Of a stretch of DNA of 64,000 nucleotides, positions 2,162-45,839 are shown piece by piece. Position 1 is the stretch's first letter; each line of letters opens with the position of its first letter. This DNA comes from Hydractinia symbiolongicarpus (Eukaryota > Cnidaria > Hydrozoa > Anthoathecata > Hydractiniidae). A program made the translations under genes and the position numbers. The stretch covers positions 19,964,001 through 20,028,000 of the forward strand of contig NC_079876.1 in the NCBI RefSeq assembly GCF_029227915.1, given 5' to 3'. The notes beneath the pieces were generated by a model, which saw only the letters and a program-made list of their open reading frames with translations, ran no database searches and was not told the DNA's origin.

Positions 2162-2681
2162 ATGAATTTTGCACCTGTTTTATGTGTACTAGTTTCAATT
2201 GTAGCGATTACTAACGGTAAGTCGGAGTGTCCATCATGTATAGCTGTATGTATTGTGATACGTATGCAAGCTTTTGAGAATAGCGTTTGATTAGGTTTTG
2301 TTAAAACACGATTCTTCCCTTTATAAAACTGCACTATTAATTATTTTTTTAAACTAAAAGAAAAAGGAATGAAATAATGTATTCGGTGGTTATTATATTT
2401 TTTGTTATTTAGGATTCAACCATAGTCGACTGCAAAAAAAATTCTTATTAAAAGCACAATCAGAAAAAGGACCATACACGAAAGAAACATCGCATCAGCG
2501 ATATCGAAGATTTTCTAACGATGTGACATTCGAACGTACACAAAGCAAGTTGACGGAATACTTGACTAACATGGTTGAGTACATATGGGATGTTCATATG
2601 AACCAGAAAAAGAATATCATACAAAAACAGCAAGTACGACAAGTACGAACGAATTATATACATAATTCTGGTCTGCACTAA
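2162..2681 (+). CDS. secreted helical peptide, family member A (two exons)
   Basis: Exon 1 is 2162-2216 (55 nt) and encodes a signal peptide of 18 residues (MNFAPVLCVLVSIVAITN). The donor GTAAGT follows directly. Exon 2 is 2413-2681, after a TTATTTAG acceptor. The join is phase 1 and the spliced frame is 324 nt, 107 residues. After residue 19 comes a lysine-rich spacer, a basic RYRR site at 48-51 and a helix-like block with EYLTNMVEYIW around 67-77. MNQKKN follows at 81-86, then a basic glutamine-rich tail. Exon length, intron phase and these blocks match members B-F elsewhere in the window. A is the most divergent: it has a 4-residue contraction in the helix and no NPWK tail. Function is not recognisable. 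The intron is 196 nt. Gene structure is inferred from splice consensus only. Confidence 0.72.
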
Positions 2682-2849
2682 CCAGCGTAAATCTTATACT
2701 CAGTAATCGTTTAACGCACATTCTGGCAGGCAATCACAAAAATCCGTTGACACTCAGTAAATAAGATATCCGATATTTGAAGCGTTTCTCCACCAGATAT
2801 CTCAAATGACCGGTGACATCAACTATGACTAATGACTGTCAATATCCTG

Positions 2850-2855
2850 AATAAA
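2850..2855 (+). promoter_or_regulatory. poly(A) signal of gene A
   Basis: AATAAA occurs about 170 bases after the stop codon of gene A, a suitable place for 3' end formation. Confidence 0.4.
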
Positions 2856-3991
2856 TACATTACTAATGATTTTAAACTTCCATTCAGGTGATGGTTTATG
2901 TAACCTTTCTCAGACAATTTTAGACAATGGGAGAATGCCCTATCAAAAGTTTTTTTGTTTATAATTCCTTCTCTGTTGTAAATTTTAGCACCAGCAAGTT
3001 CTTATCTTTTTAGCGTTAAATAGTTGAAACAATGAAGATTACCTGCAATTTAATAGGCTAATTGCAGTTAAGCTGAATTAGACTGAATAAGTTAAAAATA
3101 TTTAATATCTAAATATTCATCTCTTTCTTTACTATTATGAATTCTAGTCTAATTCTGTTCCATCATCCCAACCTGAATACAGTTAATATCAGTGAAAGCT
3201 CTCGCAACCAACATATAATTGTAATTTGTATTTGTACATAATATGTAAATGCCTATTAAAAAGATATTATTATAGAAGAAATTATATATATATATATATT
3301 ATATTATGTTATATTATATTATAAAGTAAAGTGTAACGCATTTGCTGGCAAGTGAAAAAAATTATCATAATTCAAGAATTATCCTACTAAGAATTCCAGT
3401 TTAGTTTTCTTCTTGAAGAATATACGGTGATGTTTATCAAAAACCAGTATCAGCAGCTGCTGTGCAGATTCCCTTATACTGATATCTCACACATGCACCG
3501 TGATACTTAGAGCATTAAAAGTTCTTATATTTGTTGGAACTATCCAAATTATTTTCTTATAAAAGAATCATGCTAAGTCAGCACTAGTATAGTTAAAGGT
3601 ATCTGCCACTTTAACACTATTATAACGGATTTTTTTCAACGTTACTTTTTGAATAATCATGGCGAGTGTTGATGAACACATAATAATGTCTGCTCCATAG
3701 ATCTATAGGAAGAATTAGCTTACTTGAAAGGCGTTGCAGTAGCCATCTGGATGATATTGATCTTTGTGGTTCAGTGTCTTACCATTGGTTTTACTTTAAA
3801 TAAAAGTGACTTCAGAGGTGCAAATAAATTACGTGCCGGGCAACCACTAAAAGGTTTACCTTCAACCTGTCATTTTAGTCAAAACTAAAATGTAACACTC
3901 TGCGCCTAATTGTAAAAGGGTGGATTCGTTATAATACGCCACAACAACATTAGGGATTATAAAGCAACATTGTTATCAAAAGTCAACAGCA

Positions 3992-4150
3992 ATGGAGAAA
4001 CAGAACCTCCAGCCGATTGATGACGAAGACATAACTGGTTTTACTAGAGATTCTTGTAGTTATTGTGAATATATCGAAGATTTCGACATTGTTTATGATT
4101 TTTCTAGGATTGAGTTTTTAGTTAGATCATTGCAGTGTAGTGTTGGGTAG
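3992..4150 (+). CDS. short acidic ORF, doubtful
   Basis: ATG to TAG frame of 52 residues, acidic at the start, with a CSYCEY cluster near residues 23-28. A TATAAAG sequence lies about 35 bases upstream of the ATG. No signal peptide and no family recognised. It could be a first exon, a TE fragment or chance. Confidence 0.15.
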   Translation: MEKQNLQPIDDEDITGFTRDSCSYCEYIEDFDIVYDFSRIEFLVRSLQCSVG

Positions 4151-6605
4151 GCCCTAATACTATTTGTCATGCTCTATCTTGTGCTACTTTTGTATCTGTT
4201 GTCTTCTTTTAAGTTATTTTTGAACTTTTTTCCGTTCCGAGTGGCTGATTTGTTTTCTGCCTTATACATGCCTGTTTTCATGGTTTTTGAGTGTTTTCAG
4301 TTTAAATAGTGTTTTTAACCTGCCTTTTTTAAAATTTTATATTCATTAACTAGTTTTTGGATTGTCTTGTTTATTTATTATCATTGAAAAAAAAATGTTT
4401 TAACGCTGAAATATATATATTATTATACATGTCATTTGAAGTTACAGCAGCTAGTCATGTCATAACGTCGTAAAGTGGAATGCAGTAACATTAATTACTC
4501 GTTCAACTGGCATTTCGTTTGCATCCTTTACTTATTTTGGTACATACGTTTTGATAAGTTCTGTTTTTATACCATCCTGTTTGATCATCAAGACGAAAGC
4601 AAAATAAACGTAAGAAAAAATACAAAAAATGAAAAACCTTAAGAAATCTAAAGAAGGAACAGACGAAGTGTAAATGAAATAAATGAACAAAACAATGCAA
4701 TTATGTACTTTCTCTTTGTGCTGATTTCGTTATGTGATATTAAACATTAGAATTGAGTTTTGATTGAACTAAAATAATACTTTTAGAAACTTGTACTAAA
4801 ATATCTCAATTGTAAGCTAAATGTTACAGCCAATTATTTTGTTTATCACGTCTCGCTCAATCTGGCACTTCTCAACTTTTGTGTTTTTCAATGGAAAACT
4901 ATCTGGTGTAAAAATAATAAAAGATATGAATACAAGGTAGATCGTTGAAATTAAAAAGAAACCTTGTGCTATGTCATAAAACAGCCCAGAAAGTCAGTGT
5001 AAAATTATTGATTGTAAAAGTAGTGTAGTGTAGAATTATTGATTTAAAAATCTCCATTTAATACCACTAACAATAATAAAGTTTATTTTGCATGGAAATA
5101 AAAAATAAAATCACAATACCAGTTGTTTCACTCAGCCAGTTTAAAAAACTGAGGATATAATTAATAAAGATTATGTCACACGTGGAATCTCATTAGCAAC
5201 AGACAACCTTTCCCACAAGGTTAAAGAATGTCTATTAACCTCGACTTATTTGAATCAAAAGTGAATTGTCACTATTTTGTCTCAAATAAAATCTAATGAA
5301 TGCGATCTTGCCGCTCGTCAGTCTAATAGAGAAGAAATGTAAAACTTAACAGAAAACAAAACAAATCAATTTATCAAAAAAAAACAGAAAAGAAAAGACT
5401 TTTTTACAGGATAAATGTCGTTTCTTACTTGAAATGAAAATAGGCCGGGTTTCAATGACAGGATTGTATTCAAATAACAACATGACAATGGCTTTAACAA
5501 TAAACATCGTTCAAAGTAAAGTGAGGTTTGCGGTTGACTGTATTTATGTTATTTACACTGTTAACGATCAATTTAATCTAGCTTATAGTTTTGTTGCACG
5601 GAGTGTGTTCGGTGCGCGAAGAACTTAAAAGTGTGTTTTTAAAACTTGACTGCTTAAAGTCAGAGTTTAAAACGTAAGCATGCAAATATAGTTTTTTGAT
5701 AAAATTAGAAGTGTTTGTTAATTCCAACTTTGGAATTACAATCTTTTTTTTGGCAGCTACTGGATGAGAAACAAAGGTTTCGTCAAAATAACTTTTACGA
5801 ACTTCGAAAATTTCAAAGTAGCTAGTTAACTATTGAAGCATTATGTTAGGATGCTTTTCCATGGCACTATCACATATTTGCCGCAATTTGTTTCTTTCTA
5901 AGGAAAAGCATTACAATTAGTTCCTTCCTTCTTTTAAAAACAATAATTTATTTTAATAATCGAGGACATACGGTTTAGTCTTTGACGCCAGCTATGGGTG
6001 GCTTGACGTTCTAATAAAACACATCTGTAAATTTACATGTGTGTTCTTAAATCTTTAGATGATATTTAACTATAAGATACTGACAGTGATGTTTCTAGCT
6101 GTGACCGTTGATTGTACGTCTCAAATTGTCGCTGAAAAATTATATTTATATATTTATTAATCATTTTCTTGTATCCATTTTAGCTTTTAATATTTTTCGT
6201 GGCAAAAATAGCATGAACAGCAAAATAACAAACTACAGCTTGAATGAATAAATATTAATATTTTAATGACTCTGAGGTTATAAATTTTATAGTAGTCTAT
6301 CTTTTAACATTTTTCTCAGTTCTTTGAAGCAAACCTTTACACAAAACATTTGATGAAAAGCATGATTATAAAAATTCAGGAAGAAAGGACAAAGTTTATT
6401 TATGCTTTTTAGTATTCATGATGTAATATAATTGAAGTAATATCTAACATTTTTTCGTTGTAATTTGTAATATTTCTTCGTTACAATCTCCGTCGTAATT
6501 GCTCTACAATAATACAAAAGTTTGTTTGGGAGGGAGGCACATGCACTTTTGTTCTTTAGAAATAGTGAAAAACTATGTCCTAATTGCTGTCACAACGTCC
6601 CTATA

Positions 6606-7490
6606 TTAGATTGACGTCAATGTTTTTAATTAAATTTATAAAGCTATTGCTGCGCACTTTTGAGTTTAGGCCAAATAACTTGGAAACAGGTGGAAATAAC
6701 TGATTAATCTCCCGCGTAGTAAATAGTTCTGGATACCTTGTAACTAAAATTAGGCCAATGTTCCAAAGCTAGGTCAACCCACCAGTTTTGGAGCAAGGGC
6801 GGTTCATGACGTCATAAAAACCCTGGAAGCTCAATATCTTTTCAACCGTTTGTTGAAAGCACGTGTACCTATACATTTTCTTGATCAGCATTTCAAGCTA
6901 CATACAATAAGGGCAACGGGTAAACGATTTCTTTAAACAAAATTATACATTGGTAAGTCTTTGCTGACGTCAGCAAAAGTTTTACCCTTACATCTCCTTA
7001 CGTTGAAAGCACATAAGTCTATAAATTATTTTGATCAAAGTTTTAATCTTTTTGCAATAGATGCATCGGCTTAACAAACATTTTTTTAAAAGAATTGTTG
7101 TATATATGAATTGCTGACGTCATCAAAATTCTTAAAACCTTCACCTTTTCTATTGTTATTTTGTCTCAATCATATTTACCGCGGGTTTATTGACTCTCTT
7201 ATATTAATACGCAATAAGTTTGTCTGTAACTACAAATACCGAATTAGGCCACAAGTCGGCTTTCCAAAGCAGAAGTTTCTTTCTGCTAAATAATGCACAA
7301 ATTTGAAAACATATTGTAGCTCGTTTATCATTTTCTATTTTATGCACTACGCACAAGGATGGCGCAATAAATGTTGAAAAATGGATTAAAATATGTGAAT
7401 TATGTGTTTGAAGGAAAACGTTAACGTGTATCATCACCCCAGGGTTTCTCTGCAGTAAATTCACTTAGGCAGAAAAACAACAGAGAGGAA
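6606..7490 (-). repeat. inverted, diverged copy of the TGACGTCA-rich repeat
   Basis: Read on the minus strand, this stretch carries the same ordered words as the arrays at 29-31 kb and 58-60.6 kb. These include the TTGACGTCAAT block, the GGCC-AAATAACTTGGAAAC block, TGATGACGTCATAAA, and two CTGATCAAGAAAATGTAT-like blocks. Both TGACGTCA palindromes and GCTGACGTCAGC recur. Divergence is larger than between array copies, so this is an older insertion. A short piece at 7447-7515 reads in the plus direction, suggesting a rearranged edge. Confidence 0.7.
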
Positions 7491-7499
7491 TCGTCATTT

Positions 7500-10775: not shown

Positions 10776-10776
10776 C

Positions 10777-10780
<4 letters not shown>

Positions 10781-10859
<79 letters not shown>
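10781..10859 (+). repeat. (GTCT)n microsatellite
   Basis: About 20 uninterrupted GTCT units. All three overlapping long frames here are translations of the repeat and not genes. Confidence 0.98.
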
Positions 10860-10864
10860 ATGTA

Positions 10865-11985: not shown

Positions 11986-11989
11986 TTTA

Positions 11990-12720: not shown

Positions 12721-12724
12721 ACAA

Positions 12725-13335: not shown

Positions 13336-13339
13336 CACA

Positions 13340-13575: not shown

Positions 13576-13689
13576 AATTCATCATAGAACATGACATGCA
13601 TAATGTGTGATTTACAGACCGAAATATTTTTTTCTTTACTTAAAACAGATCTAACCTTGTTAGTAACTGTTGTTGCTATTACTTCCAAT

Positions 13690-14375: not shown

Positions 14376-14379
14376 AAGA

Positions 14380-17559: not shown

Positions 17560-20500
17560 TCAACATTTTTTATGTTCTTGGCTACCTGATAGAGTTTTCT
17601 TTTTATATCTACCATGTGGGTCGAACAGATATATTTATAGCTTTTGTCCCAATAGCAGAACTATAACCACATGTACAAAAAAATTAGACCATCACCGATA
17701 GAATTTAAAGTTAAGAAATAATTTTTATCACCCAAAAACGCCGAAAATTAGTAAATCATGCACAGTTTTGGTCCTATCTCTTCATCCCTGCAAGAAACCA
17801 AACTCATGGATTCATGCTACATATATAGAATGACATTCCATCCGTTAAAAAGCTTCGTTAGTTTGAACTCTAAAAAAAAACAATATCATAAGTGGGAGTT
17901 GAAAATATTGGCAAATTAAAACATAAGCTAAACAAAAAGCCAGTAGGCATCCGTTGTCGAATTTACAAAGTTGATTCTATTACTCATTTTTTTTGCCGCA
18001 TCATCTTAAAGTCAAATAAATGCACGTGGATAATTACAGTCAATTTTAATTACCCATGTGTCCATGTGGCATTCTATTAGCTGACAAATTGCTTATTCAT
18101 TCGACCACACTTACGTAAAATAATAATTATTTTGTGAAATATTTTAAAGGAAAACCTTGCAAAGTACAACAATCGAACAATATCACAAACAAGTAATATT
18201 TCTCCTTTCTTATTAATTAATGATGATTCAATTACCTCGTATAGAACGTAGAAAATTTCCCTCATTGAGCTTGCAACGTTGTTACCTTTTGTGGTTGTTT
18301 GTAAAATATTTTTCATCTGGCGGGAAGATTTATATTGTATTTTATTTTCTATATGTTGAAATTGTCTACAATTTTAATATACCTACAAATTTGGTGGTCT
18401 GTATAATCAAAGATAAGACACTTATACAATTTGTTTAAGTACAATTTGGTGTACTAAGGCGTTGACTTTTTCCATATCTGTCAATGTTAAGTAAACATAT
18501 GTGATGTAATGTTTGAAGGCTTTCATTAATACAGACTTCAGATCGGAAAGTTGTCGCAAAAGCATATAGGATTGTAATGGTGCAAATTGGTGATACTCTT
18601 TCATTATCGACAACTCTTTCTATTCCCTGCAAATGTGGGCGTTTTGTTTTACTTTCATAATATGGAAAAGTCAGTTCTGAGAAAAAAATTTCAAAGTGTT
18701 TAAAGCCATCATGTGACGAAAATATCAGTCTTAGCTATGGCAGATACTCACCTCACTTTAGTGTGTTGTCGTGAGTTGACAAAAAACAAAGTATGTTGCC
18801 GAACAAAATAAAGTATATTTGTAAAAGCGACCGAAAACACATAACCCATAACGGCAACCAATCCCAGATGCTCGAAAAACGTTCATCGCTTCAAATATAA
18901 ATAAATTGTGTGAGGATTAAAGACGTCCAATTTGTATCAACTAAACAAATTTTAAGTAATGGAAATAAATATAACTTGTAAAAGAAATTTTAATTGCCAA
19001 TCGATACTGGAAAGCTTTAATGAGATAAGAAAAACGGTTGCTCACTGCGGAAATGAGTTACATTAAGAAATTAGATGACATGGCACACGAAAATTAAGAA
19101 ACTTAACATTTGTTGACATAAGGACAATATTTTCTTGATTTAGAAAGAAATTTGTATAACAATAACTCCGTCAATTGGAAACACGTGTCACAATATTGCA
19201 TCTTTATTTTACACCGTAGTATTACTGCTTCACTAAAACGATAATGGAACATGTCTTTATTTTGAAAGAACAGGAATTCGATTTTCATTTAAAGTGATGA
19301 TGTCATAGATAACGTATAAAGTTTGCAGAAACCTTTACAAAGGATACCACGCACATGTCACAAGAAGCGCTCGGTTACTGCTTGACCTTAGTTGAATTTT
19401 CCTTATTGCATTTGTTTGAGAGGCAAATAGATCACGAGAATTATTCTTTGTTACCATCCATGTACAGTAGCTGTGTCTAAATTTTTTTTAACAAAAAAAA
19501 AAAGATTTTAAGAAATTAGCAATGGACAGTTTTTCATTTTGTGAGGAAACCTTACTAAATTTCAGCAATCTTATGGCATAACATTATAAACAGCAAGATT
19601 AAAAGAAACTAATTTAACGAAGAAAAAATACAGCGTGTTGTGTGAGTGTGTAAAAGAAAGCTTTTTTCTCTTTTACAATTAGAGTTTGCATATTCATTGC
19701 CGCTTTTGTTGAATGCATAGAAGAATGTACGGATGATTCATTGTGAAAAATTGTTTTATTTAAAGATGACCTAATGAAAATTGAAAAAAAGAATATGCCG
19801 TACATGTACATGCACGCATGCGGTCATATATGACGTCAATAGCTCCTCTCAATTTTTCATAGATTCTAAAACTTTAACTTCACAAAGACCTGGACGCACA
19901 TGTTTCTTTGACAGACTTCCATGGGATAACATATCATATAATAAAAGTGTTAAATATTTTTCCTCAAATTTTAATCATTGTATGTTCGAGCCCAAACAAA
20001 CCATTACTCATTGCTGACATTATGCATCTTTGACATTCTGTCACAAATTTTTTTCTTGATATAATACATTGACAAAAGAGGTTAGAATTATCATATTTAA
20101 AGATATTCAGCAGATTTTTAATTTAAGACAAAAACAAGATTGATAGTGAAATAAAAATAAAACAAATTCGTGAATAAAACTAGGCCAAAAATTCACACAC
20201 GGTGTAGATATGTGATCAGATTAATCCGTAAGTTGCACATTTAGCGAGATCTGAAACACACACATTTCAATAAAGCAATCATGCAAAGTAATTCTATCTT
20301 AATTTTGATAAATAACTATGAAGACTTCAGAAGTGACACTCATTATTTATTGCTATGGAGCTACCGGCATTGTATACTGTATTACGTTTTTCTTTAGGTT
20401 AAAATTATTGTTTGAGTGCACTATTGTACACAAAACATAATTGAATGCTTGTTTAGATATGTAAAAATTCAGAAGTGCTTGAGCTATTGAATTTGAGTAT

Positions 20501-21573: not shown

Positions 21574-22047
21574 TCATGTAACTCGCTTCCAAGGATTCCT
21601 TGACTTTGTATGCAGATGATGTGGCGTGAGCTTTCTTTTCGAGTGATTCATCTTGATGCCTCTCCAAATCAGCTCCATTTTAGCTATTAACCATTTTTCA
21701 AGAAATTCTGCAGTCGCCTTATCTACTTTGTACCGAAGACATGTATTTCTTTTATATCTTCCGCGTGTAGTGCGTTGAACCACTTCAGCTATGCCTTTGG
21801 TCATGCCATGATATATTCGATGGGTACGTAGACCTAGACATATTCAATATTTTATTAGGTAAGCACATAGACAGCACAGCTATAATCAATAAATCATAGT
21901 ACCTAAAGTGATTACTGCTGTATTAAAAAATCGAGCTGTTTTGAAACAGAATTGACAGAAATCAGGTGCACAATAAAGGTTTGTAACAATACCTTGTATA
22001 ACTGTAAGAAGGAATAAAATGCAAAATGCTGTTCCGGATAAACCCAT
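21574..22047 (-). CDS. secreted helical peptide, family member B (two exons)
   Basis: Exon 1 (22047 down to 21993, 55 nt) encodes the signal peptide MGLSGTAFCILFLLTVIQ. Its donor is CAAG/GTATTG. Exon 2 (21833 down to 21574) follows a TGTCTAG acceptor. Phase 1 joining gives 315 nt, 104 residues. The new N-terminus is predicted near Gly19. A basic RGRYKR stretch at 42-47 is a good proprotein-convertase-like site. The helix block is FLEKWL at 62-67 and KMELIW at 70-75. The tail is His/Lys/Arg-rich and ends with SRNPWKRVT (RNPWK at 97-101). One cysteine (residue 50) remains in the putative mature part, so no intramolecular disulfide is possible there. It shares the upstream module with C, D, E and F. 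Function unknown; probably a secreted cationic helical peptide. Confidence 0.8.
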
Positions 22048-22164
22048 AGTGAAATAATAAGGTAGATCCTCTAATGTTCTTCTTTATTTTTTCTACATGT
22101 ATTCGCGAAACCTTTTTTTATTATTTACCCATCTAATGTCATTTACTTTTTACAGGTTTAGAAG

Positions 22165-22258
22165 AAAAGGAAATTATATAACACGACTCTTAATGAGGTT
22201 GTACCCATGTGCCTGTATATACAAAAAAGTGAGCATTCTTTTGTCACAAATACCACGC
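22165..22258 (-). promoter_or_regulatory. conserved upstream module of gene B
   Basis: On the minus strand ATGCGTGGTATT (22260 to 22249) is followed 60 bases later by CATTAAGAGTCGTGTTATAT and TTTCCTTTTCTTCTAAAC. The same two blocks in the same order precede members C, E and F (D keeps only the second), 120-230 bases before the ATG. The shared position suggests promoter or enhancer sequence, or a relic of the neighbouring cysteine ORF (see G). A degenerate reading KIVSHEI at about 22350-22370 resembles G. Confidence 0.5.
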
Positions 22259-25081: not shown

Positions 25082-25436
25082 CTATGTACTTTTTAGCCAG
25101 ATTCGATTTAATTTTGCTTTTAACCAACGTTCAAGGAATGCTACAGATTCCGTATTGGAGTTATATGTAGATGAAAATTTTACGTTAAAAAACTTCTTTA
25201 TTAAATCCAGATTATTATTTGCGCTGTATCCTTGCCTTGTTCTTCTTACGCCATGCAAATGCCAACCTGTGTGGAAGTAAATGATAACAGTATAAAATCA
25301 AAACAAACACCTGTACAGTGATTCATTACAGTAACATTATTGTATATTTGTAAGGGAATAATAATGCCTTATAACATATACCTTGTGTAACAGCAACCAG
25401 AAATGAAATGAGAAACAGTAATGTTTTTATTTCCAT
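25082..25436 (-). CDS. secreted helical peptide, family member C, short form (two exons)
   Basis: Exon 1 (25436 to 25382, 55 nt) encodes MEIKTLLFLISFLVAVTQ, an ideal signal peptide. Its donor is CAAG/GTATAT. Exon 2 (25266 to 25082) follows ACTTCCACACAG. Phase 1; 240 nt, 79 residues. After Gly19 come VRRTRQ (25-30), an Asn-rich spacer, KKFF, and then the family helix FLERWLKAKLNRIW at 62-75. The protein stops four residues later, so it lacks the basic tail and NPWK end of B, E and F. No long open frame reveals this gene because it lacks an ATG in exon 2 and is short. Identity with the family is seen in the exon design, the 55-nt signal exon and the FLE-WL--K---IW pattern. Function unknown. Confidence 0.75.
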
Positions 25437-25556
25437 TTGTAAACAATATGATAGTATTATTGTTATATGATTGTACATGTGTCGTTGATAGTGCTTTTGC
25501 CTTTGTGTTCGCTACTATTACGACGTTGTACTTATACCATTATTGAAAATAAAAAA

Positions 25557-25625
25557 AATTGAGTAACACAACTTTTGGAGGAAACATGGTGACCTTTGTA
25601 TTTTGCCACCATGAATACCACGCAT
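25557..25625 (-). promoter_or_regulatory. conserved upstream module of gene C
   Basis: ATGCGTGGTATTCATGG (minus strand from 25625), then CCTCCAAAAGTTGTGTTACT (from about 25582), corresponds to the two blocks before B, E and F. A TATAAG lies at about 25533-25538, 100 bases before the ATG. In another reading the first block is inside a minus-strand frame with DAWYSWWQ, so some coding remnant is possible. Confidence 0.4.
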
Positions 25626-26615: not shown

Positions 26616-27439
26616 TCAAAAATTGCTTATTCATGCACCATCGCACATTTATGCACATGTAAATGGATATCATAACTTCATCAAAATCAATTAGAATTCA
26701 GTAAATCAATTTCAGAAAACAAGGTTGACAGGTTTGTGTCATGTAATCCTAAGTCTTTTTTGTGGCATAAACAAACATTAATTCTTATAAAATATTTTGC
26801 CAGAAAATGCACCCCTTTACTAACTGAGCAAAAAATAAGTGGAATATCAAATAAGGAAGAGGTTGTTGGGAAAAGCGAAAGCTAAATATATCATAACAAA
26901 ATAAGATGTTAGCCGATGTTAAAAGACATTTAATAAATCATGTTCTCCTATAGTTAAGTTGCAAATGCCCGTTAAAGTACATTGGAAATAATTAAAAAAA
27001 CAATTATAATTAATGTCAATTTAATAGTAAAAGAGGAAATGGCTTCATATGAGCAAGTTGTGCTTCCGTTTAACTGTTAATGAGTTCAATTTGTCAGTGC
27101 CTTAGAAATTGACTTCATGTTTATAAAAAGAATGAACGAAGCCTGTGTGTCATCATGAATTCAACCCATGATGGGCAGAGAGCTCAACTGTTGGAGTGAT
27201 GATACCAAATATTTATAAAGTTTTATTGTATGTAACATCCAAGTGTACAACAAAATACAAAGAATTTCGAAGGTAAAACCCTTACAGCGTTACCGTTACA
27301 TATATAAACAGATTTGAATTTTTCCTTTATTATATCTTTATGATCTGATTATGAGATAAGACAAGCAATAAACTTTGACAGAAATTTTTCCCCTAAAATT
27401 CCGTGTGTAGGATAAAGTTCTTCTAACGCGATACCTCTT

Positions 27440-27991
27440 TTATCGCATTATGTAACGCTTGCAAAATGGGTGCGGCAACTGCAATATGCGGTATAATATC
27501 TTTGACTGGATTATAATTAACTCATTAGCCTCCAAATATTTGGGTGAGCTTTTATGTTGATGAGTTTGCGAAAGCTTTTTTTTCGATTGATTTAGCGCCA
27601 TTTCTCGCCATATTAACTCCATTTTCATATTTAACCATTTTTCAAGATAGGTTGTTGAGATAGCATCCAACTTACGAAGAACTGACGTATTTCTCCTATA
27701 TCGATTCTTTGTGTGCATCATATCTTTGTTACCTCCATTTACTATTGGATTTTCCGCTTGATCTTTTAAAAACAGACCTAAAAACCATATATGGAAAGAT
27801 ACATTTATTGTGTCATAATATGCAATTATGTAACTAATTTTTTGTGATAGAACAGGTTAAAAAAGGCCTCTCTAAAAACCATTCCAAAGCAGTTATAACT
27901 CTTCACATTAAATAGAAAAATGATCTCGAAACATACATTTTACTAATACCACAAGGAAAAGAAATGTAGAAAACTATTTCAATAATTTCAT
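27440..27991 (-). pseudogene. secreted helical peptide, decayed member D
   Basis: The exon 2 region begins at 27777 after a GGTTTTTAG acceptor and is almost identical to E through RYRR, YLEKWLNMKMELIW and NQSKKKL. One extra base in the tail shifts the frame, so the NPWR end is lost and the frame runs on to 27440. The exon-1 equivalent (27991 to 27937) keeps length 55 and a GT donor but has an in-frame TAG at codon 6. The last exon base is T, not G. With both ends damaged, D is best read as a recent pseudogene of the E type. A different start upstream or an alternative first exon could still rescue expression. Confidence 0.75.
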
Positions 27992-28054
27992 TGTAATAAT
28001 TGTATTTCCTTAAATATAACTTGAATTTGCTTTTATCTTCAATTAGTATTAATG

Positions 28055-28097
28055 AACGTTAGCAGACACTTGCAAGGTGCAAGTGTCTGCTAACGTT
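28055..28097. repeat. perfect 20-bp palindrome with 3-base loop
   Basis: AACGTTAGCAGACACTTGCA, then AGG, then its exact reverse complement. It lies between the promoter block and the signal exon of D. The E copy has only the outer arm (CTGCTAACGTTGGG), so the inverted duplication arose after the segmental duplication. Confidence 0.92.
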
Positions 28098-28149
28098 GGG
28101 TTGAATGCCTCATGCTGTCGTGAAGCTGTATTTATTTGTTTAGAGAAAA

Positions 28150-28190
28150 AAGAAAGTCATGTAACGCGACTTTTATTGAGGTTATTGATG
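28150..28190 (-). promoter_or_regulatory. upstream block of D (truncated module)
   Basis: Minus strand CTCAATAAAAGTCGCGTTAC followed by ATGACTTTCTTTTTTC, nearly identical to E. The more distal GCGTGGTA block is absent because a Helitron fragment occupies that place. Confidence 0.55.
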
Positions 28191-28202
28191 TAATTGCAAA
28201 CG

Positions 28203-28495
28203 CAGCTACCGAACTGCCATCATTACCGTCAGAAGTTGGAATAGTGGTTATTAAAAAGAAAGGAAGTCAAAATTCAGTTCAACAGTATACTGTGCAAAGG
28301 GGTAAAGTTGAAAACGCATTACGGGGACTGTGTTTTGGATACCCAGAAGGGGGTGTTGAAGGTCCAGATACTAAAAATAAACATCAATACAATGGCTCTG
28401 ATCACATTGACAAACCTTTAAAAGGACGCTACTTCCAGTTCCTGCCGAATGAATACTATAAGGATGTCTCAATAAAATATGACCGCATTAGAATT
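28203..28495 (+). pseudogene. Helitron DUF6570-type fragment inserted upstream of D
   Basis: In the frame 28136-28504 the portion after codon 23 reads ELPSLPSEVGIVVIKKKG, then YTVQRGKVENALRGL and NEYYKDVSIKYDRIRIL. This resembles the part of Helitron proteins that pairs a val-rich strand with V-R-KV--AL and N--Y-DV-I-.-R---L. The boundaries are visible because both flanks match the 42.5 kb copy. Neither the helicase nor Helitron ends are present. It is a captured or leftover piece, not a working gene. Family call from memory, moderate. Confidence 0.5.
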
Positions 28496-28501
28496 CTTTT
28501 C

Positions 28502-28700
28502 TGAAAATAAAAGCCAAATTTAAAGCTTTTTTGTCTATAATTGGTAATAACTCCTTCGCATTCCATATAATAGCGAATCTCGTGATTAACCATTTTCCCT
28601 TATGTTATTTGGTTATGTAAAGGTCTCAAAAAAAGAATTTTCTAAGAAGTGTTTTTAATGGTTTAAAAGTCACAACAGGGCATAAAATGTTTCTTTTCTG
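28502..28700 (-). pseudogene. relic of cysteine-containing ORF G
   Basis: The minus strand reads KMVNHEI, then ECEGVITNYRQKSF, aligned to the G exon at 42.6 kb, but the CC pair is replaced by YY and the end is cut by the Helitron fragment. An ATGGCTTTTC start matches the first codons of G near 28710 but soon meets a stop. Confidence 0.5.
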
Positions 28701-28754: not shown

Positions 28755-29175
28755 CAGATGCTATTGTACAAATGTGACTGCACTTTATTCAATTAAGTGG
28801 GGAGGAAATTTTTGGTTTTTAAGTAAACGTTTTTCCAATTATTGCAACAAGAATGGTAATGTGTACAATTTATAAATATGTTATTTTGTACACATAAATA
28901 AGACTAAAGTTCTATAAAGAATAGTCAATTGGTAGAATTGACAAAAATAACTAAAGTATTGCATACTCAAGGTTATTCGTTATTTAAATAATATATGACA
29001 GGGAGAAAAGGATTTCTTATGGATCAAGTTTTAGTAAATTGAAACTTCACGTCTTAGCTAGCCGCTAAAAAAAATGGTAATAAAATGTTAATGCTAAGGT
29101 TGAAGACATCAGATAGATGATAAGGATGATAACTAACTTGCTTAAGAAACAATTCTGAAAAAAAAAATTATTATT
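28755..29175. other. intergenic
   Basis: AT-rich, nothing recognised. Confidence 0.4.
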
Positions 29176-29178
29176 ACA

Positions 29179-30885
29179 TACTAGTCGATTAGGCCCGTGG
29201 AGAAATCCACTTAGTCAGAAGGACAATGGAAAATAGGTTGTTTTAGATGTTTTAATGACGTCAACAACCCATTCACAAAAATAAAATAAAATAAGAACCT
29301 TTTTTTCACATTGCCTCTATTGTGTAGAGCTTGAAACGCTGATCAAGAAAATGTATATAATCATGTGCTTTTGATGAACGCCTAAGGAGATACAAGGATT
29401 TAAAAAAATTGCTGACATCGGCAATGGCCCGTCAAAACCTCTAAAAATTTTTTTAAAAATTTGTATATCTGTTGCCTTCATGGTATAGATCTTGAAACGC
29501 TGATCAATAAAATGTGAAGGATCATGTACTTTTGACAAACGGTTGCAGAGATATTAGGTTTTGAAGGTTTTTTGATGACGTCATCAACCCGTTCATTCCG
29601 AAAGGGATTCGGAGACGTAGGTTTACAAAAGTTACCCAAAGTTCTCCTAGGTGATTTCTAGTTACGCACGCGGTGAAAAATGACTGACGTCACCACCTTG
29701 TTTCCAAATTATTTGGCCTCAAAATTTTAAGTGCATTGTGATGGCTTCGTTAATTTAATATAAGATATTGACGTTAAAGTAATAATATTGACGTCGCGCC
29801 GTAACGTCAGAGAATTTAACATTTCAAACAAAATCTTTTCGGTTACATCAAAGGAAAATGTACACATCCCCTTTGCCTGTCATAGACACACATACTCTCT
29901 GTATTATTATAGAGACTAGTCGATAAGTCTCGTGGAGAAATCCACTTAGGCAGATGAACAATGGAAAAATAGGTTGTTTTAGATGTTTTGCTGACGTCAG
30001 CAGTGAAGATCCCGAAAAAATTAGATAAATTTATTTTATTTTTTAATTGTAATGTGTAAAGGTTGAAACGTTGATCAAAATAATGTATAGGATAATATGT
30101 TTTCGAGGAACGCCAAAGGATATATAAGGGTTTAAAAATTGTGCTGGCGTCAGGAAAGGCCCGTGAAAACACAAAAAAGTTTTTTTAGAAATTTATTTAC
30201 CTGTTGCCTTCCTCGTATAGATCTTAAAACGCTGATCAAGGAAATGTATAGGATCATGTACTTTTGACAAACGGTTACAGACATATTGTGGTTTAAAGGT
30301 TTTGTGATGACGTCATAAACCCGTGCATTCCGAAACGGATTTGGGAACCTAGGTTTGAATAACTTACCCAAATTGGTCCCAAGTGGTCCCTAGTTATCTA
30401 CGCAGTGAAAAATCATTGACGTCACCACCTCGTTTCCAAGTTATTTGGGCACAAAGTTTTAGGTGCACTGTAATGGCTTCAATAATTAAATATAGGATAT
30501 TGACGATAAAGTAGTAACGTCAGAAAATTTAACATATTAGACATGCATTTTTCGGCAACATCAAAGGAAAATAAGCATATCAACTTTGCCTGTTACAGAC
30601 GCACTTAGCGTATTATTATAAGAGACTAGTCGATAAAGCCCGTGGAAAAATCCACTGAGGCAGAATAAAAATGAAAAAGAGAAGTGTCATTTGGATTTCA
30701 TGATATTAGCAACCCATCCACAAAAAAATATTTAAAACCATGTTTTCACGTTGCCTCTGTTGTGTACAGCTTAAAGTGCTGTTCAAGAAAGTGTATATGA
30801 TCATTTGCTTTTGATGAACGGGTTTAAATGAACACATCCACTTTGCCTGTTACAGAGACACAGAACTGGCGTATTATTATATAGA
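29179..30885 (+). repeat. tandem TGACGTCA-rich repeat array I
   Basis: Head-to-tail copies start with ACTAGTCGAT at 29180, 29915 and 30625. The first two are 735 and 710 bp and the third is cut to about 260 bp. Each opens with a CCCGTGGA..AATCCAC hairpin and ends GTATTATTATA-AGA. Inside are GCTGACGTCAGC-type and TTTTTGATGACGTCAT-type palindromes and two CTGATCAAGAAAATGTAT blocks. There are no terminal inverted repeats. The structure resembles Helitron/Helentron-derived short elements, which often form tandem arrays, but that class is a guess. The minus-strand frames here are repeat translations. Confidence 0.8.
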
Positions 30886-31129
30886 CTAGAAGTTGCTACT
30901 TCCCAGGGGCTTTTTGTAACCACAACAAAAGCAAGCGCGATAAAGATTATGTTTCTAACTTCCCCTTGCCTCATATACCATGGCAAAAAGTTTGGTTTAT
31001 TTATATGTAATGCCGTTTCTCCTGAAATAGGTTGTTTGTACAGGGATGCAAATATGATGACGTCATTTTACGCCTTATTTGCGGCTGTTTTGAAATTTCA
31101 AAATTAGCGCATGCGCAGACTGAATTTCT

Positions 31130-31365
31130 TGCTTCTAGGCGAACTTAAATGACCGTGCGTTGCCTCTATTGTGTAGAGCTTAGAATGCTGATCAAGAAAA
31201 TGTATATGATCATGTGCTTTTGATGAGCGATTAATGAGATATAAGGGTTTAAAAATTTTGCTGACGTCAGCAATGGCCCGTCAAAACCTAAATTTTTTTT
31301 TTAGAAATTTGTATACCTGTTGCCTTCATCGTATAGATTTTAAATTACCCAAAATTACCCAAATT
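31130..31365 (+). repeat. partial copy of the same repeat
   Basis: Begins at a GTTGCCTCTATTGTGTAGAGCTT block and contains TTGCTGACGTCAGCAATGGC and ACCCAAATTGGTCCCTAG, internal words of array I. Both ends are missing. Confidence 0.7.
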
Positions 31366-32985: not shown

Positions 32986-32989
32986 CTCA

Positions 32990-35625: not shown

Positions 35626-35639
35626 AGATATCTTCTACT

Positions 35640-36770: not shown

Positions 36771-36779
36771 AGTTTTATT

Positions 36780-37890: not shown

Positions 37891-37989
37891 ATATATTTGC
37901 GGCGGGAAACTACAAAACGTCAGCGGAAAATTTCAAAACAGTGAAAATTTTCAAAACAATTGCATAGACGAGGTCAAACATATATCATT

Positions 37990-38400
37990 GGAAGTGTGAT
38001 TAATTCTAGAACGGGGGAGGGGGGCGGATTCCGCCCGCAAAACGGTTTTTTTTAACAACTTCTCTATGCTACATCGCATGACTACGATACTTGCTAAGTT
38101 TCAATATTTATCTATTAGACACCTGCATGCCAATTTTTTAGGTCCGATACCGTTCAGGCGCTTTGATATTGGCTATTACTCAAAACTACCCCCCAAAATC
38201 TCTATGAAAACCTTATAATAGGGAAAATATAATAACTCTTGTTAGCATTATTGATAGAATTCGAAACTTACAACACAACTTTGTTTTATCAAGAAAAATA
38301 ATTTTGCATATTTTGACCACGTGTTTAATCCGATTTCCCGATTTTTTCGGATTTTACACGAAAATCGGGAAAAACCGTAATTCCGGGCAATTTTCGGCAT
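37990..38400. repeat. G-rich interspersed repeat edge
   Basis: A GGGCGGATTCCGCCC hairpin at 38022-38036 sits in a GGGGGAGGGG context, followed by a poly-T run and unusual low-complexity words (CGATTTTTTCGG, TCGGGAAAAACCG) to 38400. Not coding. Confidence 0.4.
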
Positions 38401-39650: not shown

Positions 39651-39659
39651 TCATTAACT

Positions 39660-40410
39660 AATTGTGGAGAATAACGCATGCTTTTGTAACTCTTGTAACA
39701 ACCTCCTTTCTCGCAATAATTGGCGTTCGAAATATTCGGAATCTAGTTGGCAAAATTCCAAAACTGTTCTCGAATATTCGTCTGCATCGCGACAATCTAT
39801 AGTTAAATATGCGTTATTTTATGCGCAATGAAGCCTTGAATATGGTTTCATCAAATTTATTTTTAAGGAAAATGCCTCATCACCAACGAAATGTTCTCAC
39901 ACATTTCTCTGGTTGCTAAAAATTTAGTGGATTCTCAACGATGAGAACATCAAGGTTGCTACTTGAAACCCCCCTCCTCACTATTTTTACCAGAATCTAC
40001 AATATCCAACATGGTGAATTTATAGTTGGCGTTGCACACAGCCATTAGAGTGTGTTTTTTTGTAATTAAAGTACATTGAGCCTGATCTAACATGCAATCA
40101 ATCGCACCAAGGGAATGATTAAATTGACGCTTTGCTTTAGAATCGCTAGCGATTTGTTTCCAATTTTCCGTTGATGCAAACATCCCATATAACTGCGATC
40201 GTCTCGAATATGGTTCGTCCAATAGCAGTGGGACTTTTACGAAAGCTATCTGATATCGTGACTTGCGCATCAGTGGTAACAATTTAACGAAGTGTAACGC
40301 TTAAACATTCGCTCGGGCCAATTGACTTCCTCTTTACCGATAACACTTGCTCAAGAAGATGTTCGTATTGAGTAGCTTTCATACGGAAATATTGAAAAAA
40401 AGAGCTTGAT
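39660..40410 (-). pseudogene. PIF/Harbinger (HARBI1-like) transposase relic
   Basis: The minus frame 39959-40282 contains FNHSLGAIDCML and LMAVCNANYKFTMLDI, then SGKNSEEGGF. These are the DDE_Tnp_4 signatures around the first two catalytic aspartates (GAIDG and ANYKFT-VD in the family; here the first motif reads AIDC). Upstream in another frame is SECLSVTLR (about 40295-40330), and downstream are LMKPYSR and FTIDCRDADEYSRTVLEF-like pieces (about 39700-39860). Frameshifts and stops make it dead. No Myb-like partner ORF or TIRs seen. Confidence 0.82.
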
Positions 40411-40414
40411 TTCC

Positions 40415-40905
40415 TGTATAAGCAAGTGAAATTCACCTTTCTCTTTTCCTTCTTTATAAATTTGATGAACCTTATTAGCTTAACATGAAACTAAGGCACA
40501 TTTGTTTCTGTTAACGACCAATACGGACAATTATTTTAAGTAAGGTAAATTTGTAAATGACAATGCCGAGAAATCATTATTACAGCATACCACCGTGCGA
40601 AATGATTTCCTTTCAAGATGGGGTCATGGTAAGACAACTTGGGTTTGTGCAAGACACGTAGCATTTGAATAGGTTTCTTCCTACAGTTGCTTTATGAAAC
40701 ATTATTCGTTATTCTTATTTAAAATATTATTATTGCTTGTTAAATAACCGTTGTGTTTCTCTCATGTTCTTTTCTTTACATTTCTCTCTGCATTTCTTTG
40801 AAAAGTAAAAATTATTTTTTCTCTCTGCCGTCGACCTGAATTTACTGCGTTGCAAAGAGTGAGTTTTAATAAAAATCTATGTGGCTTTAACATGCTGTCA
40901 GTAAA
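40415..40905. other. intergenic
   Basis: Nothing recognised. Confidence 0.4.
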
Positions 40906-41846
40906 TTGCTTATTCATGTACCATCATAGATTTGCGCACATGCTATCATAACTTTATAAAAATCAATTAATTATCAATAGATCAGTTCGTAAAGCAAAGG
41001 TGACAAGTTTTTATATTTTAAACATTTTAGATAAGCATCTTTTGTGACGTAAACATGTTTTATTATTTCGTAACTTGCAATATTGTATGTTTTAAAAACT
41101 AATGTTACCGTAGAACAACAAGTGTCAGATAGAAGAATATTAAGAACCGCGATCACTAAATGTGTTTTTCCAATGATATAAGAAAATCAATTAATCAGAA
41201 TTTCGTATAGCTAAATTGTATTTGTCGATTCAAAAAACAAACAACGCAACTATAATTATTTTCAATTTAATGGTAAAGCAGGAAATAGTGTCAAATGAGC
41301 AAGCTGTGCTTTTATTAATGGTTGATAAGTTTGACTTGTAATTGTCATAAAAATTGACTTCATAGTTATAAAAAGAGTTTACGAAGTATTGCTTATCGCT
41401 CATGGATTCGCACGATGTGCAGAATGTTTAGCTGTAGACGTCATGACAAGTTAAGTAAAGAATTTATTTTATTATATATTTTTATTAGTTACACTTTTAT
41501 TGGAATATTTAAAATTTACAAAATAAAATGCGTTTCGTAAATAAAAACAATTACATCGTCATGTATAAATCGTCATGTATAAATATTTTATATATATATA
41601 TATACCTATAATTGAATCTTTGCTTAGCTAAATCTAATTTTATAATCTGATTATGAGCTAATACAATTGATATTCTTTGGTAGAAATCTTTTCACTTTTA
41701 TTTCAATGTAGTGTTACTCTCGTATTTCTATAGCGTGTAAAGGATAAAGTACTTTTAACATCATATCTCTTTTATTACGTTTTCAAACAACTGCAAAGTG
41801 TATGCTAACTACATTATGCAGTATGATATTTTCGGATTGTTATTAA

Positions 41847-42320
41847 CTAACTCGCTAGCCTCCATGGATTTCTGGAGTTCTTATGTTGATGAATTCGCGT
41901 AAGCTTTCTTTTAGATTGATTTAGCGCCATTTCTCGCCATATTAACTCCATTTTCATGTTTAACCATTTTTCAAGATAGGCTGTTGAGATAGCATCCAAC
42001 TTACGAAGAACTGACGTATTTCTCCTATATCGATTCTTTGTGTGCATCATATCTTTGTTACCTCTATTTACTATTGGATTTTCCGCTTGATCTTTTAAAT
42101 ACAGACCTAGAAAACGTATATGGAAAGATACATTTATTGTGTCATAATATGTGGCATGAAAATATGCAATTATGTAACTAATTTTTTGTAATAAGTCCTC
42201 TAAAAACCATTTAAAAGAAGTTATAACTCTTCACATTAAATATATACAAATCGATCTCGAAAACATACCTTTTACTAATACCACAAGGAAAGAAATGTAG
42301 AAAAAAGTTCTAAATTCCAT
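41847..42320 (-). CDS. secreted helical peptide, family member E (two exons)
   Basis: Exon 1 (42320 to 42269, 52 nt) encodes MEFRTFFYISFLVVLVK with donor AAAG/GTATGT. Exon 2 (42106 to 41847) follows an ACGTTTTCTAG acceptor. Phase 1; 312 nt, 103 residues. The order is signal peptide, acidic/neutral spacer (19-36), MMHTKN, RYRR at 43-46, YLEKWL at 61-66, KMELIW at 69-74, NQSKRKL, a His-rich stretch and RNPWR at 96-100. No cysteine in the mature part. Closest to pseudogene D. A cleavage after RYRR would release a 57-residue basic peptide with an amphipathic helix (inference). The signal exon is one codon shorter than in the other members. Upstream on the same strand is ORF G. Function unknown. 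Confidence 0.8.
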
Positions 42321-42460
42321 TGTAATGATTGTATTTCTTTAAATATATATTTTATTTGCTTTTATTTTCAGTTAGTATAATGATGTTGCATGCATCTGCT
42401 AACGTTGGGTTGAATGCCTGATGCTGTCGTGAAGCTGTATTTATTTGTTTAGAGAAAAAA

Positions 42461-42550
42461 GGAAGTCATGTAACGCGACTTTTAATGAGGTTATTGATGT
42501 AATTGCAAACACAGGAAAGTTAGAACTCTTCTGTAAAGTTTACCACGCTT
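42461..42550 (-). promoter_or_regulatory. conserved upstream module of gene E
   Basis: On the minus strand AAAAGCGTGGTA (distal, overlapping the end of ORF G) is followed by CATTAAAAGTCGCGTTACAT and GACTTCCTTTTTTC. These match the blocks before B, C and F and lie about 140-230 bases upstream of the ATG. Confidence 0.5.
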
Positions 42551-42787
42551 TTCTCCTTTTCTGTAAGCACATGCCAACTGTGAAGTTTTTTTGTCTATAA
42601 TTGGTAATAACTCCTTCGCATTCCTTGTAACAGCAGATGTCATGACCAACCATTTTCCTTGATGTTTTTTTCTGGAAAAATAGAGATACATAAAAGTTAG
42701 AAAAATTAACGAACTGTGAACACTTACTTTAAACAAGAGCGAAATGGAATAAAGTGCTATTGAACCAGTGCAACCAAAAAATGCCAT
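42540..42787 (-). CDS. putative small cysteine-containing secreted peptide G (two exons)
   Basis: Exon 1 (42787 to 42728, 60 nt) encodes MAFFGCTGSIALYSISLLFK and meets a GTAAGT donor. Exon 2 (42671 to 42540) starts after TCTATTTTTCCAG. Phase-0 joining gives 192 nt, 63 residues. Exon 2 reads KKTSRKMVGHDICCYKEC, continues with EGVITNYRQKNF, and ends MCLQKRRKAW. Cysteines CC, C and C would allow two disulfides in the mature peptide. The signal segment is only moderately hydrophobic. An unspliced frame also runs through, so the intron is uncertain. Relics lie in the same position upstream of D (KMVNHEI...) and perhaps B and F. It may be a companion gene of the peptide family, or part of its upstream control DNA that happens to be open. 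Confidence 0.35.
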
Positions 42788-42829
42788 TTTATATATATTG
42801 CAAACTGCAGCACTATTTTGCAAATAAGA

Positions 42830-45150
42830 ATGCCTTTATGGATAGAAATTTGAAAACTTGACCTCAAATGTAACATTAACTCAAAACAGACAAAAAGTAT
42901 ACGTTGGTTAAAGTGTCGTTTCTAAAAATACCGATGCGCAAAGAATATGTAGTGTTGCAGTAGAAGAATGTTGCACGATAGTGTTTTTCTCGCACAAAGA
43001 GTACTCAAAGAGTAAGAAGGATGTAATAACGTTTTCTTTAAACCATTGGTATAATGAAAACTTAAGCAATATAGGTATCATAGCAACATAGGAATATAAT
43101 TTATCATGTGCATGTTGTAATTTATTAAATATGAAAAAGTTCTTTTTTGTAGGCGTTTGTTAATAATTTAAAGAGCTAAAAAAATATTTGTTACGATATG
43201 ATATTACTTACTACAAAACACGCACATACTAGCATTATTTGGTGGCTAATATTAATTATGCGAAAAACGCGCAGGAAGAGTTCACTCGCAATATACATTT
43301 CTTTTTTTACAATAAATTTGAGGCATCCTTTAACTGTTTCCAAAGTTGTGAATTGGATTTTGCCTGTAGCTCAAGTTCAGATTCGATCAACATATTCAAC
43401 CGTATCAGTATTCGCATCTACTAATGATATGACATGAAATTTGTCAGTTTAAAACTACAGCACTAGCACTAATAGTCACAATTTTCTTTAAATGAATTGT
43501 AGTAAAAAAGAGAAAAGAGAAATTAATCAAAACGAGTGACATAGATATTGATAGAATATATCCTTCCTTCGTAAATTATTGGGCATATAAAAAGCTGATA
43601 ACAAAGAGGGACACGATATACCGCTAATAGAAGCATTTTTGCATATTCTTTTTTCTTAGTAAGGGGATATCTTAGTACTTGTTCTGTTTCTTATGTTACA
43701 CTAACTAAATTCAAAGGAATTATAAAAATCTTCTATATTTTTCAAATTGTCACTATATCGGGTCGAGAGCACGCAATTCAAACAAATTCTAGTTGGTAAA
43801 TTGCAAGTGGCACAGATGAGGAAAAAACGTACATCGAAATCCTGGATCTGATCCTGATTTAATTGTTGGTTTTCGTGATTAAGCCATCCGCGTGTGTGGG
43901 GACGTGTTTTTTGGAGTTCAGGGTTTATGTGTTAGTTAAATTAATGCGTTGGTTTCTATAATTTAAAACAAGTTTGAAAAGAATTCTCATCACCTTTGGT
44001 ACATTCTGTCTCCCTTTATACACACAGCTGGCATAGAACTAGAGCAGATAAAGAAAGTTTTATGTTTTGATCAAAGAAGAACTGACAGTAGAATTAGACA
44101 TTTGCCCAATTCACTAATTTTTAGTAACGTCAATCATTCTGCTTCCACAAAAAGTTTTTCTTTTAGTCATTGTACGTTTTATTGTTTGTAACGAAGATTA
44201 GTTAACACGCTATGAGAACTTACTTTTACAGAGGATATTCAGGTGTTGTGACTTGATGACATAAAATTTGAAAGATAACTTGTATTAAAATTATCCATAT
44301 CAAAGTATATCTTCCATTTAAAGTTTACGAGTCGATCAAATCTGTATATCCGGTACACAGCCTACTGCAGGAAGACTTTTTATGTACACAAAATTTTCTG
44401 AAACCACAATTTAATAACTTTTTTTGTATCGCCTACCACGTTGGTCAGACAATCAATAATTACAAATTTGAAATGCCTACATATAAAGCAACCTCTTATA
44501 AAAAAGTTCAATTGTAGATGCAATACCTAACCATAGTTTTCCCATTATTGCAATGAAATGATTAACATTCGCCTAATAGTTACGTCTTTTGGTAGCGCAG
44601 AATCTTGGTCTTCTACATATATATGTTTGTCATTAAACAAGTATCATCTTTAAAACCAACTCCTTTGCTACCTGATTGCTATTAAAGTTTTTTACTCGTC
44701 GACTATAAAACTTAAATTCAAAAGTGTGCTTGTAACGTGTAAAAAAATTTACTTGGACTTGAACTGCGTTTCTCCAATCGTCAAAGAAAAATATATGATT
44801 AAGCTGCGATTGCTACGCATAACCATTTTCACATAAAAAACGAAAATATTGTTGGTGAAATAAAAATATATGTTTTTGTAAGAGATAATTTATTTTGGGA
44901 TTGTCAATTTTATGAAGGTTGCCGTGTCTGATATATTTTTTTTATATTCACTGAATGGTTCAATATATAAAGAAGTGATAATACGCTCGGGTTGTCATAA
45001 AAAGTTTTCAATGAATAAATTTGTAATTTTAATTAATTTCGTTTTTATTTTTAGATTTTCAGTTCGGTTAAAATTTACAGGAATTCACATGTTACAATCT
45101 GACACGTTATAGGTTATACTAACAACATTGCCTATTCATACTTTCGAATA
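42830..45150. other. intergenic between E/G and F
   Basis: No homology. Overlapping frames at 43198-43437 are unassigned; one contains a CFQSCELDFAC cluster but no start context or signal exon. The frame 44912-45112 includes a hydrophobic MNKFVILINFVFIF start. Neither is convincing. Confidence 0.35.
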
Positions 45151-45170
45151 AAAAGTTTCAGGGAAGTAAT

Positions 45171-45276
45171 GCGTGGTAGAGTTTTTACAAACTTTCCTAT
45201 ATTGACACTTGCATCATTAACGTCATTAAAAGTCATGTTATACAACTTCCTTTTATATGAACGTTTAAATAAAAGA
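45171..45276 (+). promoter_or_regulatory. conserved upstream module and TATA-like site of gene F
   Basis: GCGTGGTA at 45171-45178, CATTAAAAGTCATGTTATAC from 45223, then AACTTCCTTTTAT, and a TTTAAATAAAAG TATA-like site at 45265-45276 about 90 bases before the ATG. The order and spacing match B, C and E, though F is on the opposite strand. Confidence 0.55.
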
Positions 45277-45363
45277 TTACCCCGTTAGTGTGCATGAAAA
45301 CAAGAACTGTTCCAGTATACATGTATTAAATACCAAATACATTAAAGACTTATATATTTTGCA

Positions 45364-45839
45364 ATGGAATTATTTAGAACAGCGTTTTGCATTTCTCTGG
45401 TTATCATCTCTATACAAGGTAAAAGTTAATACGCAATAGTGCCATATTATTAAATCAATTTCTTAGTTGCCTTTTTATTAAATGCAGGCTTTAATGTAAC
45501 TTGTCGCCTAATTATTCAAGTGTATGGTGAGACACAAAATAGCGGCGTTGTACATAAATTTCATCGATTAAATGTCTTATTTATATATTTTTAGCTCGAC
45601 ACTTAGCTAGAATAAGCCCTGATGTGTCTAAAGAAACTACCAAAACATTTCCGAATTTCGAAGGCAGAGTACAATTCCAACATATATTGGACGACACATC
45701 CACAGCAATTCTTGAATTCTGGCTGAACAGAAAAATGGAAACAGTTTTAAAAGAAATTCAAAATAACCAATTAAAACAAAAAGTTAGCATAAAGCATGAA
45801 CATAGACACCCAAAGAATCCTTGGAAAATGATAAAGTAG
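45364..45839 (+). CDS. secreted helical peptide, family member F (two exons)
   Basis: Exon 1 (45364-45418, 55 nt) encodes MELFRTAFCISLVIISIQ and is followed by donor GTAAAAG. Exon 2 (45595-45839) follows TATATTTTTAG. Phase 1; 300 nt, 99 residues. After Ala19 comes RHLARISPDVSKETTK, a spacer with no clean dibasic site, then ILEFWLNRKMETVLKEI at 57-73, NNQLKQKV, a His-rich tail and PKNPWKMIK to the end (NPWK at 93-96). The block order equals B and E but the sequence is well diverged, and the strand is opposite to B-E. No cysteine in the mature part. Function unknown; the family pattern is clear. Confidence 0.8.

Follow-up and report, generated by a model that had tools for sequence, protein, structure and literature searches.

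Clustered two-exon genes in Hydractinia symbiolongicarpus encode related short peptides predicted to be secreted and helical

A 64,000-nucleotide (nt) stretch of the Hydractinia symbiolongicarpus genome (RefSeq GCF_029227915.1, contig NC_079876.1, positions 19,964,001 to 20,028,000; hereafter the window) appears to hold a cluster of related two-exon genes, labelled A to F, for short secreted peptides predicted to form helices; judged from sequence, the genes look real. Five of them (A, B, C, E and F) give intact spliced frames of 107, 104, 79, 103 and 99 residues. In each, a first exon of 52 nt (E) or 55 nt (A, B, C, F) encodes a predicted signal peptide and is followed by a phase-1 GT..AG intron (A 196, B 159, C 115, E 162 and F 176 nt). 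These models were present as described in an earlier interpretation made from the letters alone (the sequence-only reading), which had counted six loci with a signal exon. D, the sixth, is not intact: a premature stop breaks its would-be first exon, and its 3' end has diverged. Two-exon genes of such size are easily missed in annotation because each exon is short.

The conserved part of the second exon is a helix core, followed in B, E and F by a basic tail of His, Lys and Arg ending in NPW[KR]. The sequence-only reading had assigned all loci a shared block, [FY]LE-WL--KME-IW, with basic residues downstream and an NPWK or NPWR end in B, E and F. The end lies close to the C-terminus of those three, as claimed. 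The block is absent from A, which matches the others in architecture and in the position of its predicted helix, and in F it reads ILEFWLNRKMETVL, the last W missing. Downstream basic residues occur in B, E and F but not in C, whose second exon stops directly past the core and so has neither basic tail nor NPW.

Signal exons of this kind are rare by chance. We scanned both strands for ATG exons of 49–64 nt with a phase-1 G/GTR donor and a hydrophobic stretch. The scan returned six exons in the window, five of them, those of A, B, C, E and F, with a hydropathy of at least 2.8. Markov simulations (orders 1, 2 and 3; 60 each) gave a mean of 0.15–0.20 exons at that level per window, and none of the 180 reached five. 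As the scan criteria were fixed once the exons had been seen, this is a strong control, yet not a blind one. The sixth candidate, at 47934 on the minus strand, has a hydropathy of 2.21, inside the chance range.

The second exons are related to one another. In Smith-Waterman alignments of the secreted parts, with 500 shuffles per pair, every pairing of B, D, E and F (six in all) scored z 13.8–54.5 and C scored z 5.8–6.6 against B, D and E, none of these scores being reached by a shuffle; C against F gave z 3.3 (5/500 shuffles). Leave-one-out profiles run against 1512 open reading frames (ORFs) of the window recovered B, E, F and C with E-values of 1.4e-20, 1.2e-22, 4.3e-13 and 7e-4. We read B, D, E and F as clear paralogues and C as a shorter, distant one. 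The anatomy and family status of B, E and F are very probably correct; for C we are less sure.

The sequence-only reading had included A on equal terms, and that part of it was not supported. Against the five others A scores z 0.7–2.7, values reached by 10–128 of 500 shuffles, and against a profile of B, C, E and F its E-value is 1.7, with 49/2000 shuffles doing as well. In a two-block test that favours A (an RYRR block plus the core, free spacing), 521/20,000 shuffles reach its score and, among 591 ORFs, A ranks level with one for a reverse transcriptase; on the core block alone, 5198/20,000 shuffles reach it. We therefore rejected A as a proven member: with alignment, profile and block scores all within shuffle range, common descent with the family is not shown, despite the architecture, the RYRR motif and the predicted helix. 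Its anatomy and family status may be right but are doubtful.

Intron position and phase do not settle the matter. In animals, phase-1 introns are over-represented near the signal peptide cleavage site, as stated in the portion of PMC1626468 relied on here, so the place and phase of an intron alone are no proof of common descent. Generic genes of that type share both features with the cluster (PMC1626468, same portion). What distinguishes the cluster is the relatedness of its second exons (B, C, D, E, F) and of its promoters (B, D, E, F).

A ~50-bp promoter block, with a consensus of about CATTAAAAGTCRYGTTAYATGACTTCCTTTT, is common to B, D, E and F and weak in C. Its AGTYRYGTTA element lies 133–180 bp 5' of the ATG in B, D, E and F, and it ends in ACTTCC, a candidate ETS-type site. 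When upstream 300-mers were compared, B–E, B–F and E–F scored above all controls (0/800 comparisons reach them); the B–C score was reached by 35/800 controls. Pairs with A were reached by 400–759 of 800, and the block was not seen upstream of A in this comparison. Leave-one-out scans recovered the blocks of B (E-value 3.7e-6) and F (1.3e-5) and, with D and E both left out, those of E (3.2e-6) and D (2.8e-5). With C left out, its block was the top remaining site, but at an E-value of 0.99. Of five copies of the octamer GCGTGGTA in the window, four lie upstream of the promoter block, 211, 187, 228 and 193 bp from the ATG in B, C, E and F, respectively. The fifth copy, at 19352 on the minus strand, was considered as a sixth promoter and rejected, there being no signal exon after it. 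We also rejected as an extra gene the ORF at 42491–42835 on the minus strand, just upstream of E, which opens with a hydrophobic stretch and may contain a GT..AG intron; it overlaps the E promoter block and is probably a chance frame.

D and E lie within a segmental duplication (27001–28205 against 41247–42514, and 28496–28610 against 42556–42670), with a further duplicated piece at 26620–26735 against 40903–41010. The insertion at 28205–28496, upstream of D, has a weak DUF6570 match (E-value 0.012, under the Pfam cut-off); we presume it to be a Helitron-type fragment. Identity between D and E is 239/258 in exon 2, 127/144 in the intron, 174/194 immediately upstream and 355/506 downstream.

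Selection on exon 2 was estimated by the Nei-Gojobori method as the ratio of nonsynonymous to synonymous divergence (dN/dS). The ratios, rough because dS exceeds 1, are 0.27 for B/E, 0.34 for B/F, 0.36 for C/E, 0.46 for D/E, 0.47 for B/D and 0.53 for B/C; E/F is not computable because dS is saturated. Significance tests cover B/E and D/E, and purifying selection is significant for B/E (Fisher p 3.3e-5). These values bear on whether the loci are mobile-element remnants or non-expressed decaying duplicates rather than working genes, as could be supposed from a region full of transposon fragments, a decayed D, a short C and the D–E duplication. We consider this very improbable, since B, E and F combine intact frames, splice sites and the promoter block with purifying selection, and since a counterpart of F, described below, has kept its exon-2 frame while its intron frame has shifted.

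Three proteins came out of a profile search (163 candidates in 5.8 billion): P0001, P0002 and P0003, counterparts in other assemblies of B, F and A, respectively. P0001 and P0002 contain the intron and are thus genomic. B and P0001 are identical at 98/103 exon positions and 37/51 intron positions (p 1.4e-4). F and P0002 are identical at 66/78 positions, with one two-codon gap in the preserved exon-2 frame; because the intron frame is shifted, the intron comparison (12/36) is not directly equivalent. A and P0003 are identical at 65/67 positions, and A having been part of the query profile, P0003 is no evidence for its membership. Differences between F and P0002 number 8/34 before the core, 4/28 in the core and 2/18 in the tail; for B and P0001 the corresponding counts are 2/39, 2/28 and 0/18. 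With B, C, E and F compared in all six pairings, 55/108 core positions are identical, against 42/108 in the signal peptide.

The family had been called rapidly evolving. That description suits the pre-core stretch of F, the fastest part, and not the paralogues as a whole, which are constrained. The same constraint bears on a role as gamete- or self-recognition proteins. Basic, helical, secreted products of a duplicating cluster under a common promoter would suit such a role, but the paralogue dN/dS of 0.27–0.53 is not above 1 and no recognition-gene linkage was seen in the window; we regard it as improbable.

As first proposed, this is a predicted secreted peptide gene family, and the searches run found no relative beyond the assemblies that hold P0001–P0003. 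No Pfam family was matched by the proteins scanned (A, B, D, E, F); the hits of the D ORF to CamS (0.088) and RICH (0.1) were rejected as below a usable threshold, as were PDB sequence matches at E-values of 0.65–1.4, none falling below 0.65. Rfam gave 0 matches and a tRNA scan 0. A protein search with E alone returned 2 candidates and one with E, D and C returned 4, none of which scored. None of 23 stretches from viral contigs (searched with E exon 2) or 63 from prokaryotic contigs (searched with B exon 2) was confirmed, and a literature search whose scope excluded preprints and most subscription journals yielded no description of the family. Short, secreted, clustered and fast-changing genes would also fit venom components of nematocyst or gland. 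This too has a low probability in our view: the Pfam and PDB searches show no known-family similarity, and the secreted parts hold no disulphide scaffold, with one cysteine in B and none in A, C, E or F. No result of this analysis favours venom or allorecognition, both raised by the sequence-only reading, specifically.

The predicted peptides are cationic and helical, as had been proposed. Net charges of the secreted parts, His uncounted, are +9 (A), +17 (B), +8 (C), +12 (E) and +6 (F). AlphaFold2 models are in essence single helices: E exon 2 (mean predicted local distance difference test score, pLDDT, 65) forms one long helix at 38–76, with scores above 90 over the core (block means of 93 and 92 over 41–60), and A exon 2 (mean pLDDT 77) a helix at 37–85, from an input alignment that included the other genes. 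Four of the sequences, A, B, D and E, have basic runs on either side of the helix: a furin-type RY[RK]R motif (RYRR or RYKR) before it and KRK, KKK or KK after it. The first basic site (RYxR) is missing from F and both are missing from C.

Most likely, the cluster specifies a lineage-restricted set of secreted peptides for defence or signalling. Under a defence function, dispersed paralogous genes with a shared proximal promoter would yield secreted prepropeptides, which signal peptidase would cut near the exon junction, the phase-1 intron lying at the likely signal cleavage site. A furin-type convertase may then cut A, B and E at RY[RK]R; F and C would either be processed elsewhere or act in uncut form. 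The freed, basic-tailed helical peptide could serve in host defence, as an antimicrobial or by shaping the microbiota, its tail binding negatively charged microbial surfaces.

Arminins of Hydra are cysteine-poor, as are the peptides here. The closest described organisation is that of the Hydra antimicrobial peptide families, which in the sections of PMC10945409 drawn on here are lineage-restricted paralogue clusters of similar exon–intron structure; the Hydra antimicrobial repertoire is built from such secreted peptide clusters, and dozens more families are probably still unrecognised. To the extent covered by those sections and by parts of PMC4820302, arminins resemble the cluster in their short secreted precursors, basic C-terminal part and paralogues in one locus, and have no homologues outside their lineage. 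Periculins likewise form lineage-restricted paralogues in few loci with similar exon–intron structure (PMC10945409, same sections). By description only, the likeness ends there: arminins pair a conserved acidic N-terminal part with a variable basic C-terminal part (PMC4820302, in part), whereas this cluster has a basic pro-part and its conserved part is the helix core, and the bipartite charge and complex cysteine pattern of periculins (PMC10945409, in part) have no match here as regards cysteines, nor does the pattern of HyCWR. The cluster would add concrete junctions, precursors and a shared promoter beyond the families named in that part of PMC10945409.

Several observations weigh against working genes for defence peptides of this kind. 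Instead of the acidic region that follows the signal peptide in arminins, the stretch before RYxR carries +4 to +7 in A, B and E, and conservation is higher in the core than in the signal peptide, the reverse of arminins as far as the cited parts describe them. There is no cysteine pattern. A hydrophobic moment beyond composition, a trait of amphipathic helical antimicrobial peptides, is absent: it lies within shuffles for A, B, C and E (126, 171, 270 and 214 of 500), and F, at 26/500, has its best stretch N-terminally, outside the core. If KRK were also cut, the helix would be nearly neutral (E +1, B +3). At the gene level, the upstream scores of C–E and C–F are not above control (178/800 and 361/800), the D/E selection test is not significant (p 0.10), and neither AATAAA nor ATTAAA was found in the 600 nt 3' of B. 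Because the organisation resembles that of Hydra antimicrobial peptides but the protein features match poorly, we put forward defence only tentatively, and regard a receptor ligand as possible, if somewhat unlikely.

Such a ligand would be a prohormone- or cytokine-like signal, with cuts at RY[RK]R and K-x-K/KRK freeing a ~36-residue receptor-binding helix and the tail serving as a spacer. This reading agrees with the basic runs that flank the helix in A, B, D and E, with a core that varies least among the paralogues and is constrained against the counterparts, and with the near neutrality of the excised helix. The missing sites in F and C argue against it, as does the lack of matches in PDB and Pfam noted above. 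We further consider, and hold to be rather unlikely, an undescribed lineage-specific ligand family in which one promoter drives several genes, a paralogue-specific helix of ~36 residues meets a receptor and the basic NPW[KR] tail forms another conserved product.

Table 1. Positions in the window of the gene models, their upstream elements and neighbouring mobile elements
Feature	Position	Strand	Basis or remark
A exon 1, signal peptide, 55 nt	2162..2216	+	highest hydropathy in signal-exon scan
A exon 2 including stop, membership unproven	2413..2681	+	counterpart P0003; not above shuffles against family
B exon 1, signal peptide	21993..22047	-	gene model, signal-exon scan
B exon 2: RYKR, helix core, basic tail, NPWK	21574..21833	-	alignment, profile, counterpart P0001
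C exon 1, signal peptide	25382..25436	-	gene model, signal-exon scan
C exon 2, short, no sequence past core	25082..25266	-	alignment; left-out profile E-value 7e-4
D, decayed near-copy of E: exon-2 frame open, first exon broken	27440..27991	-	
E exon 1, signal peptide, 52 nt	42269..42320	-	gene model, signal-exon scan
E exon 2: RYRR, helix core, basic tail, NPWR	41847..42106	-	alignment, profile, model
F exon 1, signal peptide	45364..45418	+	gene model, signal-exon scan
F exon 2: helix core, basic tail, NPWK; without RYxR	45595..45839	+	alignment, profile, counterpart P0002
B promoter block	22158..22204	-	upstream comparison, left-out scan
C promoter block, weak	25543..25589	-	in-sample; left out, E-value 0.99
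D promoter block	28141..28188	-	upstream comparison, left-out scan
E promoter block	42450..42497	-	upstream comparison, left-out scan
F promoter block	45214..45261	+	upstream comparison, left-out scan
GCGTGGTA box of B	22251..22258	-	
GCGTGGTA box of C	25616..25623	-	
GCGTGGTA box of E	42541..42548	-	
GCGTGGTA box of F	45171..45178	+	
Pogo/Tc5-type DNA transposon	52601-54873	+	HTH_Tnp_Tc5 2.7e-14, DDE_1 1.9e-38
Non-LTR-type (long terminal repeat) reverse transcriptase pieces	48828-50267	-	RVT_1 1.1e-30 in 49117-49938

Besides the mobile elements of Table 1, the window contains a 167-residue ORF on the minus strand at 53073–53576, next to the transposase ORFs in antisense orientation, whose match to HIRAN is weak (1.2e-4, slightly short of the Pfam cut-off). 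Repeat units of ~1.3 kb, 70–90% alike, lie at 29167–31344 and 57984–60610, with a partial inverted copy at 6595–7231. Simple repeats, (GAA)62 at 48053–48238 and (TGTC)20 at 10780–10859, leave several frames open.

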